From contig NZ_JAKKDU010000013.1 of NCBI RefSeq assembly GCF_021728535.1, positions 1-64,000 on the forward strand: a stretch of DNA of 64,000 nucleotides. The letters run 5' to 3'. Under the pieces are notes generated by a model. That model did no database searches and was not told the DNA's origin. It was given only the letters and a program-made list of their open reading frames with translations. Numbering within the stretch: position 1 is the first letter of the stretch; the number at the start of each line of letters is the position of its first letter. Below are positions 6,501 through 64,000 of the stretch, in pieces. A program made the translations under genes and the position numbers. The DNA is from Wocania arenilitoris (lineage in GTDB: Bacteria > Bacteroidota > Bacteroidia > Flavobacteriales > Flavobacteriaceae).

Positions 6501-6862
6501 TTAGCAGTTTCTTTAACCACAGCAAAAGCTTCTGGTAAAATATCATTTAATGTTTTTTCAACAGCTTCATAAGCTTCATCTTCAATTTTATCAACTTCTT
6601 GATAAATATCTTCGCGTCTATCAATATCTTCAGTAGTTTCAGCTTCTTTTAAAAGGGCTTCTTTTCTATCGTTAAAAGGCTTACGTGTTTCGGCAATAAT
6701 AGCCTTAAATTCGGCTGTTTTTGCTCTTAATTCGTCATGCGATAACCCTTCTAAAGCAGATTCAAAGGTTTTAACTTTATCTACTATGGGCATTAAAGCC
6801 TTTACGTCTTGTTTCGATTTGTCGCCAACAAATACTTTTAATACAGAATTTAAAAAACTCAT
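3509..6862 (-). CDS. secA: Preprotein translocase ATPase SecA
   Basis: Motor ATPase of the Sec pathway that drives unfolded preproteins through SecYEG. At 1117 aa it has the length usual for Bacteroidota, longer than the roughly 900 aa of E. coli. Visible parts are Walker A MQTGEGKT (GEGKT at about 195-199), the DEAD-type Walker B IVDEVDSVLVDDARTPLIIS, the second helicase motif with TNMAGRGTDIKL, the arginine motif RVDRQLRGRAGRQGD, and a helical scaffold. An extra charged insertion lies between the two nucleotide-binding domains (about residues 330-450). The C-terminus lacks the Cys-rich zinc-binding tail of proteobacterial SecA and ends GDWVLVED. The ATG at 6862 gives the standard MSFLNSVLKVFVGDKS start. 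Confidence 0.98.
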   Translation of the reverse strand: MSFLNSVLKVFVGDKSKQDVKALMPIVDKVKTFESALEGLSHDELRAKTAEFKAIIAETRKPFNDRKEALLKEAETTEDIDRREDIYQEVDKIEDEAYEAVEKTLNDILPEAFAVVKETAKRFVNNTSITVKANEFDRSLSGDKEYITLDGDNATWSNSWDAAGKPITWDMVHYDVQLIGGVAMHQGKIAEMQTGEGKTLVATLPVYLNALTGRGVHLVTVNDYLAKRDSAWMAPIFEFHGLSVDCIDYHQPNSEARKKAYNADITYGTNNEFGFDYLRDNMAHSPDDLVQRPHHYAIVDEVDSVLVDDARTPLIISGPIPQGDRHEFNELKPKVDDIVSVQRKYLIGVLAQAKKLIAAGDTKEGGFQLLRVYRGIPKNKALIKFLSEEGVKQLLQKTENFYMQDNNREMPKVDAELYYVIEEKNNQIELTDKGIEYISGKENPDFFVMPEIGIEIAKIEEKGLSAEEEANLKEDLFKEFGVKSERIHTLNQLLKAYALFEKDTQYVVMDNKVMIVDEQTGRIMDGRRYSDGLHQAIEAKENVKIEDATQTFATVTLQNYFRMYRKLSGMTGTAVTEAGEFWEIYKLDVVEIPTNKPIARDDKEDLVYKTKREKYNAVIDDVTQLSKAGRPVLIGTTSVEISELLGKMLSIRKISHNVLNAKQHKKEAEIVDQAGKSGQVTIATNMAGRGTDIKLSDQVKAAGGLAIVGTERHDSRRVDRQLRGRAGRQGDVGSSQFYVSLEDNLMRLFGSERIAKMMDKMGLKEGEVIQHSMISKSIERAQKKVEENQFGVRKRLLEYDDVMNAQREVVYKRRYNALNGERLRVDLANMIFDTSEGIAETNKGANDFKNFEFELIRYFSMASPISEEEFGKLSAQEITSKIYKSAFDHYKDKMTRNADIAFPVIKNVYETQRDKFKRIVVPFTDGAKSLNVVTDLEKAYESGGKQLINDFEKNITLAIIDDAWKTHLRKMDELKQSVQLAVHEQKDPLLIYKFEAFELFKSMIDQVNKDVISFLFKGELPQETQDTIQEARARKKEKLNTQKDEIPNLDERSAQNRAAGNTQRQPEVVETIVRDRPKIGRNDRVTIKHVINGENKTLKYKQAEPLINKGDWVLVED

Positions 6863-7036: not shown

Positions 7037-7258
7037 TTAATATTCGTCCTCGTTCCAGAGGTAATCTTCATCAGTTGGATAATCTGACCAAATTTCTTCA
7101 ATCGAATCATACGAATCGCCTTCGTCCTCAATCGACTGTAAATTTTCAACAACTTCTAACGGTGCGCCAGTTCTAATAGCGTAATCTATTAATTCGTCTT
7201 TGGTTGCTGGCCAAGGTGCATCACTTAAATACGATGCTAATTCTAAAGTCCAATACAT
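7037..7258 (-). CDS. DUF2795 domain protein
   Basis: A 73-aa acidic protein of the DUF2795 family, widespread as a single small gene in Bacteroidota. The family core is visible at residues 2-42: Y-W-T-L-E-L-A-S-Y-L, then WPATKDELIDYAIRTGAP followed by VVENLQSI. The remaining C-terminal third is almost entirely Asp/Glu/Tyr/Trp. The molecular function is unknown. The fold is predicted to be a small helical DNA- or protein-binding domain, which I cannot confirm here. The gene stands alone, ending before a good terminator, so it is probably monocistronic. Confidence 0.9.
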   Translation of the reverse strand: MYWTLELASYLSDAPWPATKDELIDYAIRTGAPLEVVENLQSIEDEGDSYDSIEEIWSDYPTDEDYLWNEDEY

Positions 7259-11219: not shown

Positions 11220-11276
11220 ATGATAATTTTTATGCAAATAACGGATAAAAAACCAAAAATTCCGATATATGTTTTA

Positions 11277-60301: not shown

Positions 60302-60326
60302 ATTTTAGTATAATTTATTTCAGTGA
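60302..60326 (+). promoter_or_regulatory. Shared 25-bp element, copy upstream of azurin
   Basis: Identical over 25 bases to 61028-61052; both begin ATTTTAGTATAATTTATTTC (then AGTGA). This copy lies 90 bases before the azurin ATG. A TATATTTG (60359-60366) resembling a -7 box is found downstream of it. It may be a binding site for a common regulator. Confidence 0.5.
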
Positions 60327-60415
60327 TAAATACTAAACAATACAAAAGGTTATATGGTTATATTTGTACTGAAAATATTTACTTAGTAGAATAAACATAA
60401 ATTAAAACACTAAAA

Positions 60416-60928
60416 ATGAAAACAATTAAATATGTATTATTATCTGTTTTTTCTTGTGCAATATTAGTAGGTTGCGGAGAAAAAGAAGAAAAAAAGAAAG
60501 AAGGTTTTTCGTACGAAAACAAAACAAAAGAAACTAAAAAAGTTGTAGAAGAAGATATAAGTAAGGTGGTTTTAACATCTAACGATTTAATGCAGTATAA
60601 TAAAACTGAGATTAAAGTAAAAGCTGGGAAAAAAGTAAAATTAACACTTAGGCACATAGGAAAGTTAGATAAAAAAGTAATGGGGCATAACTTTGTTTTA
60701 TTAAAGCAAGGTGTTAGTGTTTCAGAATTTGGAAACAAAGCGGCTACTTTTGCAAATAATGAGTATATCCCTAATGATACTCAGGATCTAATAGCACATA
60801 CCAAATTAATTGGTGCAGGAGAAACAGCTGTTATAGAATTTGATGCTCCAAAACCTGGTGAGTACGATTTTTTATGTAGTTTTCCAGGGCATTATGCTAT
60901 TATGAAAGGAAAGTTTATTGTTGAGTAA
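60416..60928 (+). CDS. azu: Azurin (blue copper lipoprotein)
   Basis: Periplasmic, membrane-tethered type 1 copper electron carrier. The 170-aa precursor has a lipoprotein signal ending VGC (Cys20) followed by a Lys/Glu-rich linker. The cupredoxin domain has all four ligands: His91 in MGHNFVLL, Cys154 and His159 in LCSFPGHYAIMKG, and axial Met163. It probably delivers electrons between a dehydrogenase and a cytochrome. It is followed by an intrinsic terminator. An identical 25-bp element occurs upstream of it and of the DUF1080 gene, so co-regulation is suggested. Confidence 0.95.
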   Translation: MKTIKYVLLSVFSCAILVGCGEKEEKKKEGFSYENKTKETKKVVEEDISKVVLTSNDLMQYNKTEIKVKAGKKVKLTLRHIGKLDKKVMGHNFVLLKQGVSVSEFGNKAATFANNEYIPNDTQDLIAHTKLIGAGETAVIEFDAPKPGEYDFLCSFPGHYAIMKGKFIVE

Positions 60929-60955
60929 AACATAAATAATAATTCTATCAAAAAA

Positions 60956-60989
60956 TTAAAAAGTCTGAGTTTTACACTCAGATTTTTTT
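60956..60989 (+). terminator. Intrinsic terminator after azurin
   Basis: TCTGAG (60964-60969), a 7-base loop, CTCAGA (60977-60982), then a run of seven T (60983-60989), with A residues before the stem. A standard factor-independent terminator, placed about 30 bases past the azurin stop. Confidence 0.85.
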
Positions 60990-61027
60990 ATGGATATAAT
61001 ATTATTCTAGATTTTAATAGCTTATTA

Positions 61028-61052
61028 ATTTTAGTATAATTTATTTCAGTGA
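61028..61052 (+). promoter_or_regulatory. Shared 25-bp element, copy upstream of the DUF1080 gene
   Basis: Identical to 60302-60326. It lies 62 bases before the ATG at 61115, after the azurin terminator, so the DUF1080 gene has its own control region. Confidence 0.5.
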
Positions 61053-61114
61053 ATAATACTGTACAAAAATGTTGATATAAATTTCTAAATTAGAGGTTTT
61101 AATAGAAAATATAC

Positions 61115-63001: not shown

Positions 63002-63030
63002 ACATGATAAACAAAATAATTCATAATAAA

Positions 63031-64000
63031 ATGAATAGTATAAAATTGCTAGTATTAGTTTTTGTGATTGGTTTTTCGCAAATTATATTAGCTCAAAATA
63101 CACCTAAAGAAGAAGATTATTATCGTATAACAAAAGTGCCAACACCAGAAGGTGTTCTTGTTGAAGGTGGTGGCGTTTTAGTATTACCAGATGGTACCGT
63201 TGCAGTTTGTACAAGACGAGGTGATGTATGGATTATTGAAAACCCAACCATGTCTAACGGATATCCATCAAAGTTTATAAAATTTGCTTCTGGTTTGCAC
63301 GAGCCATTAGGTTTAGCTTATCGTAATGGAGCAATTTATACAGCGCAAAGAGGAGAGCTAACAAAGTTAGTAGATACTGATGGAGATAGAATTGCTGATG
63401 TTTACGAAACCGTTTATGCATGGCCATTATCAACCCATTATCACGAATATTCTTTTGGACCAGTTTTAACTCCAGATGGTGACTTTTTTGTTACTACTAA
63501 TGTTGCTTTTGGAGCTGAAGAGTGGTGGCGTGGAGAAAGTCGTGTGCCTTGGAGAGGTTGGACTATGAAAATTACAGAAGACGGACAAATGGAGCCTTGG
63601 GCAACAGGAATGCGTTCTCCAGCTGGTTATGGCTTAATTGATGGCGAATTATTTTATACCGATAATCAAGGTGATTGGCAGGGGTCGGGTGCGTTATGGC
63701 ATGTGCCAAAAGGAGCGTTTACTGGTCATCCAGCTGGTTTAAAATGGGCAAAGCATAAAGATTCTCCTATTAACTTTACTGAAAAAGATTTTTATAGTAA
63801 AATTGATATCAGGCAAGTAAAAAAAGACGGGCGATATGTAAAGCCAGAAAATATTATGGATGAAGAAGATCCTGATTTTAAATACGAAATGAAAGCGCAT
63901 TTTCCGCAGTTGCAATTACCTGCTGTTATACTACCTCATGGTATTTTAGGAATTTCAAACTCTGAAGTAAAAGTAGATGAAACAGGAGGGAAATTTGGAC
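63031..64000 (+). CDS. Secreted beta-propeller sugar dehydrogenase-like protein, 5' part (cut by window end)
   Basis: 323 codons are visible. The signal MNSIKLLVLVFVIGFSQIILAQ starts at the ATG 63031; an ATG at 63004 in frame would add nine residues. Propeller repeats are clear: GGGVLVLPDGTVAVCTRRGD, HEPLGLAYRNGAIYTAQRGE, LVDTDGDRIADVYETVYAWP, GPVLTPDGDFFVTTNVAFG and GMRSPAGYGLIDGELFYTDN. This is the soluble glucose/sorbosone-dehydrogenase type of propeller found in putative membrane-bound dehydrogenases. It may carry a heme or cofactor domain downstream, which lies outside the window. Two bases separate the preceding stop from the 63004 ATG. Confidence 0.75.
   Translation, partial: MNSIKLLVLVFVIGFSQIILAQNTPKEEDYYRITKVPTPEGVLVEGGGVLVLPDGTVAVCTRRGDVWIIENPTMSNGYPSKFIKFASGLHEPLGLAYRNGAIYTAQRGELTKLVDTDGDRIADVYETVYAWPLSTHYHEYSFGPVLTPDGDFFVTTNVAFGAEEWWRGESRVPWRGWTMKITEDGQMEPWATGMRSPAGYGLIDGELFYTDNQGDWQGSGALWHVPKGAFTGHPAGLKWAKHKDSPINFTEKDFYSKIDIRQVKKDGRYVKPENIMDEEDPDFKYEMKAHFPQLQLPAVILPHGILGISNSEVKVDETGGKFG

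Follow-up and report, generated by a model that had tools for sequence, protein, structure and literature searches.

A conserved 33-bp palindrome upstream of azurin and DUF1080 genes is a predicted operator of an AraC-family regulator in Flavobacteriaceae

Near the end of the 64,000-nucleotide window of Wocania arenilitoris analyzed here, an azurin lipoprotein gene is followed by a presumed operon that begins with a DUF1080 gene (Table 1). The azurin scored above the cut-off of the TIGR02695 equivalog model (108.1 versus 105.1 bits), and its lipobox and Cys/His/Met ligand motif were recognized by eye. The DUF1080 protein reached 78.3 bits against PF06439 (cut-off, 26.8) and is a predicted hydrolase. 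The product of the second operon gene contains one CxxCH motif and a C-terminal Cytochrom_C match of 21.9 bits (cut-off, 21.3). Elsewhere in the window, positions 11220 to 46328 are occupied by a long run of genes for polysaccharide export, ABC transport, and glycosyltransferase-like proteins, named by eye from the translations as a surface polysaccharide cluster.

The first-pass annotation had reported an identical 25-bp element upstream of both units, at 90 and 62 bases before the start codons, with a terminator between them. Indeed, both copies of ATTTTAGTATAATTTATTTCAGTGA are exact, and a terminator-like hairpin lies between the units. The distance of 62 bases was reproduced, while the distance to the azurin ATG was measured as 89 bases. 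When up to 3 mismatches were allowed, ATTTTAGTATAATTTATTTCAGTGA matched the window at these two places only, and it was absent from all 100 dinucleotide shuffles of the window. Similarly, the 20-mer AGTATAATTTATTTCAGTGA, searched with up to 3 mismatches, was found in the whole 3.49-Mb genome only in the two window copies; the same pattern read backwards gave five chance matches in the 3.49-Mb genome.

Table 1. Features of the azurin/DUF1080 locus and of the predicted regulon. Positions are those of the window unless a contig (C) is given; C5 is the contig of the window.
Feature	Position	Strand	Remarks
25-bp repeat copy 1, ATTTTAGTATAATTTATTTCAGTGA	60302-60326	+	Exact match
Operator O-azu, 33-bp palindrome	60307-60339	+	Dyad center 60323; 10/16 pairs match
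TATATTTG, Bacteroidetes-type -7 box	60359-60366	+	Begins 36 bp after O-azu dyad
Azurin lipoprotein, 170 aa	60416-60928	+	TIGR02695; Copper-bind PF00127
Terminator-like hairpin between units	60964-60982	- (as listed)	T run after it on + strand
25-bp repeat copy 2, ATTTTAGTATAATTTATTTCAGTGA	61028-61052	+	Exact match, 726 bp from copy 1
Operator O-duf, 33-bp palindrome	61033-61065	+	Dyad center 61049; 10/16 pairs match
TAAATTAG, weak -7 box	61086-61093	+	Begins 37 bp after O-duf dyad
3-keto-disaccharide hydrolase domain (DUF1080) + PA14 protein, 628 aa	61115-63001	+	PF06439
Second gene of presumed DUF1080 operon	63004-64000	+	Continues to contig position 64956
AraC-family regulator gene (araC)	C5:96835-97860	-	36 kb from azurin
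Operator	C7:67678-67710 (9696 in locus L174)		Before PSCyt1/DUF1549/DUF1553 gene, then DUF1501 and second PSCyt1 protein
Operator	C1:298110		Before DUF7133/cytochrome c gene; sixth R2 site

Each copy is part of an odd-centered 33-bp palindrome, of which the repeat covers the left half, the center, and a little more. In 57 aligned sites, T4, TTCA at positions 14 to 17, TG at 19 and 20, and AC at 32 and 33 were invariant, and G3 was nearly so; the palindrome is near-perfect in two relatives (L007, AGTACAATATTTTTCACTGAAAAATATTGTACT; L013, seen in the alignment). Since it is the 33-bp dyad that is conserved as a unit, the exact identity over 25 bp is partly accidental. In line with this, the two copies of the relatives L003 to L006 are not identical to each other within the 25 bp.

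The relatives come from 51 azurin loci, which were fetched from named genomes. In L003, L004, L005, and L006, azurin and a DUF1080 gene are each preceded by a copy of the element. In L007, L008, L013, and L018, azurin is preceded by one, and L013 has another copy before a DUF7133/cytochrome gene. In the three presumed activated site classes, pairwise identity was 0.78 to 0.91 in the operator versus 0.31 to 0.52 in the flanks. At the araC start, a site class described below, it was 0.84 versus 0.57 and 0.68 in the flanks, the right one of which is coding.

Variant sites beside an AraC-family gene were first seen in L008, and in the window's genome the same palindrome is located on both sides of such a gene, araC. 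This gene is divergent from genes for a GMC oxidoreductase (PF00732/PF05199) and a gluconate-2-dehydrogenase-3 subunit, and it is followed by genes for two TIM-barrel isomerase-like proteins (xylose-isomerase-like), an MFS transporter, a GFO/IDH oxidoreductase, and two DUF1080 proteins. In the araC cluster, the GMC and PF13618 genes adjoin, and PF06439 scores of 163.2, 132.7, and 125.7 bits were obtained (cut-off, 26.8).

AraC scored above the cut-offs of the helix-turn-helix (HTH) models PF12833 HTH_18 (67.4 versus 33.6 bits) and PF00165 (62.3 versus 26.6 bits), and its N-terminal domain remained below that of Cupin_2 (19.2 versus 27.2 bits). In the predicted model (pLDDT, 83.7), the double HTH resembled the DNA-binding domains of AdpA (3w6v; TMt, 0.92) and AraC (2k9s; 0.76), and the fold of the regulatory domain matched BgaR (6nx3; TMt, 0.66), RhaR (0.62), and AraC (2arc; 0.55). 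The best full-length structure matches by E-value (Rns, CsvR, and ToxT) superposed poorly (TM, 0.26 to 0.41). The regulator is predicted to belong to the AraC family, with a regulatory domain near those of the lactose sensor BgaR, RhaR, and AraC.

Orthologues of araC (E ≤ 1e-60) were detected in 22 of 199 family genomes, and all 22 loci had a site at the araC start. There, the dyad is centered on the first base of a triplet, GTG in 20 loci and ATG in 2 (L113 to L134), so the operator and the N-terminal codons are constrained together. The triplet shares the reading frame of araC in 21 of the 22 loci and is, by its sequence, out of frame in G175. In the window's genome, this operator is located at C5:97846-97879 (about 14847 to 14881 in L093). 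The associated operon had a site at all 21 loci that could be checked, directly downstream of araC in 20 of them; in G002, it precedes a TIM1-MFS-GFO operon about 7 kb away. G112, whose locus ends at a contig edge, was left out of this count, and G145, which the initial motif had missed, was entered by hand. The AraC of L018 (10266 to 11285; L197) was rejected as an orthologue, being a paralogue with 47% identity; in this Seonamhaeicola metagenome-assembled genome (MAG), the paralogous gene is located 4 kb from azurin.

A symmetric matrix was built from 36 araC-flanking sites of other genera, after removal of a spurious G002 "downstream" site and with the window's genome and its genus-mate G006 left out. 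It was used to scan 142 kb of the window's genome, consisting of the window and of stretches that were picked around araC and matches of profile R1 and are thus not random. Four strong sites were found: those downstream of araC (36.8) and at the araC start (33.1), and the two window copies (61049, 23.3; 60323, 22.1). The next-best site in the 142 kb scored 4.3, and first-order Markov sequence (3.5 Mb) reached 12.0 at best. Two stretches taken later contained further sites (30.5 and 26.9). Since the matrix recovered the azurin and DUF1080 sites without having been trained on them, both belong with the araC operators. This recovery and the conservation of the operator across genera, far above that of its flanks, lend good support to the suggestion of a common regulator in the first-pass annotation.

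The plain string search had found no more than the two window copies, as the other regulon sites are too divergent, and profiles were needed. With profile R2, built from 57 sites including the window copies and giving rough E-values, the whole genome yielded six sites, five with E < 1e-6 and the last with 0.0023. They are the two window copies, the two araC sites, C7:67678, and C1:298110. Random genome positions had been named beforehand as an outcome that would speak against the first-pass reading, and these six top-scoring matches all adjoin gene starts. Because a strong operator precedes the PSCyt1/DUF1549/DUF1553 and DUF1501 genes, we place their operon in the sugar-oxidation regulon. The products are planctomycete-type cytochrome proteins without assigned function. 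Beside the C1 operator, we noted a transposase-like open reading frame (ORF), recognized by eye, whose frame contains a masked or ambiguous stretch (L175, 9127 to 10203). In G162, a homologue of the DUF7133/cytochrome c gene (881 aa) also has a site.

In other genomes, nontraining sites away from araC were located before a PSCyt1-like gene (G006), next to a DUF7133/cytochrome homologue (G180), and before a TIM1 operon (G002), an MFS-type transporter gene (G082), and an unassigned gene (G162 C1). Extra operators adjoin loci with SusC and a protein with the motif WMNDPNG, which we take to be GH32-like (sucrose/fructan; L226 of G070 at 7213 and L230 of G034 at 6728), hinting at an inducer linked to sucrose-type sugars.

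Several matches were rejected. An AT-rich BLAST match on C13, in a tRNA/EF-Tu region, was taken as chance, and weak profile matches on C32, C14, and C37 and at C7:3262 are located within coding sequence or at its margin. The C14 match spans a gene start and was left uncounted at a background matrix score of 4.3. G158 (R1, 8e-4) was without a site according to the araC-trained matrix.

The operator also co-occurs with araC. Among the 38 of 51 azurin loci that were scanned, 8 scored above 12 and 30 scored 0 or less. Of the 51 loci from named genomes, 28 were tested for AraC, which was present in 8 of 8 with the azurin operator versus 3 of 20 without it (p = 5e-5); the Fisher values here and below are optimistic, since the genomes are not phylogenetically independent. 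Of the 199 family genomes, 10 had R1 sites with E ≤ 0.001, and 8 of these 10 were AraC positive (p = 2e-7). R2 matches were found in 22 of 22 AraC-positive versus 5 of 177 AraC-negative genomes, a comparison in which the training had included sites of most of these AraC-positive genomes and of G051. When the nontraining matches away from araC were considered, 8 of 22 AraC-positive and 4 of 177 AraC-negative genomes had one (p = 2e-6). The AraC-positive matches were all between ORFs; the four AraC-negative ones were inside ORFs (G149 and G141), over an ORF start (G024), or intergenic (G147, 73% complete). Furthermore, azurin and araC were less than 15 kb apart in 13 of the 17 genomes with both genes, and less than 50 kb apart in 16. 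Of the 69 family genomes with azurin, 30 were scanned for the azurin operator itself; it was present in 6 of 16 AraC-positive versus 1 of 14 AraC-negative genomes, which was not significant (p = 0.06). Since only 6 of the 16 AraC-positive genomes have it, azurin is a lineage-specific target.

These data bear on the explanation that the palindrome serves another regional regulator or an AraC paralogue and is linked to araC by neighborhood only. A Reg_prop/Y_Y_Y/GerE protein is indeed encoded nearby (C5:86286-89096), and G051 (88% complete; 190 contigs) has the azurin operator, while araC was not found in it. Moreover, the outer right half is unlike between the site classes (TACTGAAC-like at azurin; mostly with TAAACA, TACACA, or TATACA endings at araC), so that two paralogous regulators are possible. 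However, the sites track araC at its start (22/22) and at the associated operon (21/21 checked) and co-occur with the gene, and their dyad symmetry is unlike the direct repeats described for SusR-like regulators and hybrid two-component systems (HTCS) in the pertinent sections of PMC3878776. We therefore regard another regulator as unlikely.

The promoter geometry suggests how AraC may act. The Bacteroidetes -7 consensus is TAnnTTTG, and transcription starts shortly downstream of the -7 box. Of 14 azurin sites, 13 have a TAnnTT box that starts exactly 37 bp after the dyad (36 bp at the azurin of the window), and so do 7 of 7 DUF1080-operon-type sites, the L013 cytochrome gene among them, and 20 of 21 araC-downstream operon sites; at the C7 promoter, TAGTTTTG was recognized by eye at +36. 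The order is reversed at the araC starts, where in 20 of 22 loci the dyad follows 34 bp after the beginning of a T(A/T)nnTTGC box. With a start a few bases past the -7 box, the dyad would be located near -50 at the targets and near +20 at araC. Since it lies upstream of the -7 box and abuts the -33 region at the targets, the regulator would activate them; since it lies just downstream of the -7 box and over the start codon at araC, AraC would repress its own gene. The positions in the sequence thus suggest activation by an abutting dimer at the targets and autorepression at araC.

Could the same AraC instead repress azurin and the DUF1080 operon until an inducer releases it? An operator abutting a promoter can also block RNA polymerase, and the position of the araC-start site does suggest repression. 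However, the spacing of 36 to 37 bp between dyad and box is fixed at three promoter sets, while araC keeps a wholly different one (-34), and AraC-type activators typically bind at a fixed distance near -50. Repression of the targets is thus quite improbable. The RNA polymerase site offered by the first-pass annotation as the other option did not hold up: the distance from the two start codons fits a promoter, but the element is palindromic, the -7 box is separate and begins 36 to 37 bp downstream, the palindrome is downstream of the -7-like box at araC, and six copies exceed the background in 3.49 Mb, so that a sigma-factor or RNA polymerase promoter element is hardly credible. Finally, a functionless repeat that arose by chance or by recent local duplication, as two copies 726 bp apart and identical over 25 bp might indicate, is refuted by the retention of the element at orthologous promoters of several genera, where the flanks are down to 31 to 52% identity.

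In E. coli, AraC uses paired half-sites by the promoter and a separate autoregulation site. The regulator proposed here would resemble the AraC/RhaS-type proteins of E. coli in having paired half-sites next to the promoter and autoregulation from a separate site; it shares with them and with BgaR the AraC-type HTH, and its regulatory domain may have the cupin-like fold of their sugar domains. It differs from them in its odd-centered inverted dyad at about -50, the Bacteroidetes -7 box, its own dyad on the start codon, and its targets, which are 3-keto-glycoside genes and azurin.

LacABC dehydrogenases and DUF1080 proteins were linked to the formation and hydrolysis of 3'-ketolactose in the periplasm (Price et al. 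2022, PMC9007349). The Caulobacter lacABC cluster encodes dehydrogenase subunits, a DUF1080 protein, a transporter, two epimerases, and a reductase (PMC9007349). Compared by kind with this published description, the araC cluster has matching proteins: a GMC large and an adjacent gluconate-2-dehydrogenase-3-type (PF13618) small subunit, DUF1080, MFS, two TIM barrels, and GFO/IDH; c-type cytochromes are present in the predicted regulon. In the genome of the window, azurin and distant cytochrome operons share the operator, whereas the parts of PMC9007349 on the Caulobacter system mention neither an operator nor azurin, and the words "AraC" and "cytochrome" are absent from its main text.

In Bacteroides thetaiotaomicron, BT2157 is a 3-ketotrehalose hydrolase (PMC9007349) within the cluster BT2156-BT2160 (PMC11501099), and SusR4 (BT2160) is a SusR-like regulator whose sites are direct repeats spaced by 67 or 77 bp (Ravcheev et al. 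2013, PMC3878776). Thus, a local transcription factor accompanies a 3-keto-glycoside cluster in both cases. Unlike SusR4 and HTCS as characterized there, however, our regulator is of the AraC family and has a single 33-bp inverted repeat, not direct repeats with a long spacer. Two-gene operons of azurin and a predicted transcriptional regulator were described in two Flavobacteriaceae (PMC8779525), so that members of the same family have azurin beside a regulator gene; the passages on these operons do not state the regulator family, operator, or pathway. As proposed for the present AraC, CgrA of Zobellia, an AraC-family activator of carrageenan use with a known deletion mutant phenotype (PMC5698469), acts positively on a sugar regulon of marine Flavobacteriaceae. 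It serves another pathway, and an operator motif is absent from the text of PMC5698469 on CgrA.

Taken together, we propose, with a probability of about 0.8, that both copies of the repeat are operators of the AraC encoded on C5, which would be an autoregulated activator of periplasmic 3-keto-glycoside metabolism and azurin. An AraC dimer would occupy the 33-bp dyad, with one half-site per 15 to 17 bp. It would activate azurin, the DUF1080/cytochrome operon, the TIM-barrel/MFS/GFO-IDH/DUF1080 operon, and the PSCyt1/DUF1549/DUF1553 operon, and at its own start codon it would cause autorepression. The GMC/gluconate-2-dehydrogenase-3-type enzyme would oxidize glycosides at C3 in the periplasm, DUF1080 hydrolases would cleave the 3-keto-glycoside, and epimerases and reductases would recycle the keto sugar.

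Since a periplasmic dehydrogenase needs an electron acceptor, the azurin and CxxCH proteins of the regulon are candidates. Azurin and c-type cytochromes would take electrons from the dehydrogenase, and we infer that azurin is probably an electron acceptor of sugar oxidation in the AraC regulon. A broader idea, to which we give slightly less than even odds, is that flavobacterial azurin is not a general respiratory carrier and is instead a dedicated, co-induced acceptor of periplasmic glycoside 3-dehydrogenases, wired via portable operators to AraC, which would sense the substrate or the 3-keto product.

Among the matches listed in a search of open-licence PubMed Central articles (titles and abstract openings), no paper on such a regulon was found. 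It would be a new regulon of a known kind, and the proposal names a regulator, an operator, and targets for the 3-keto-glycoside route in marine Flavobacteriaceae and gives the azurin of Bacteroidetes a testable role. If the broader idea is true, portable 33-bp operators would keep azurin and cytochrome genes in the regulon after they have moved off the cluster.
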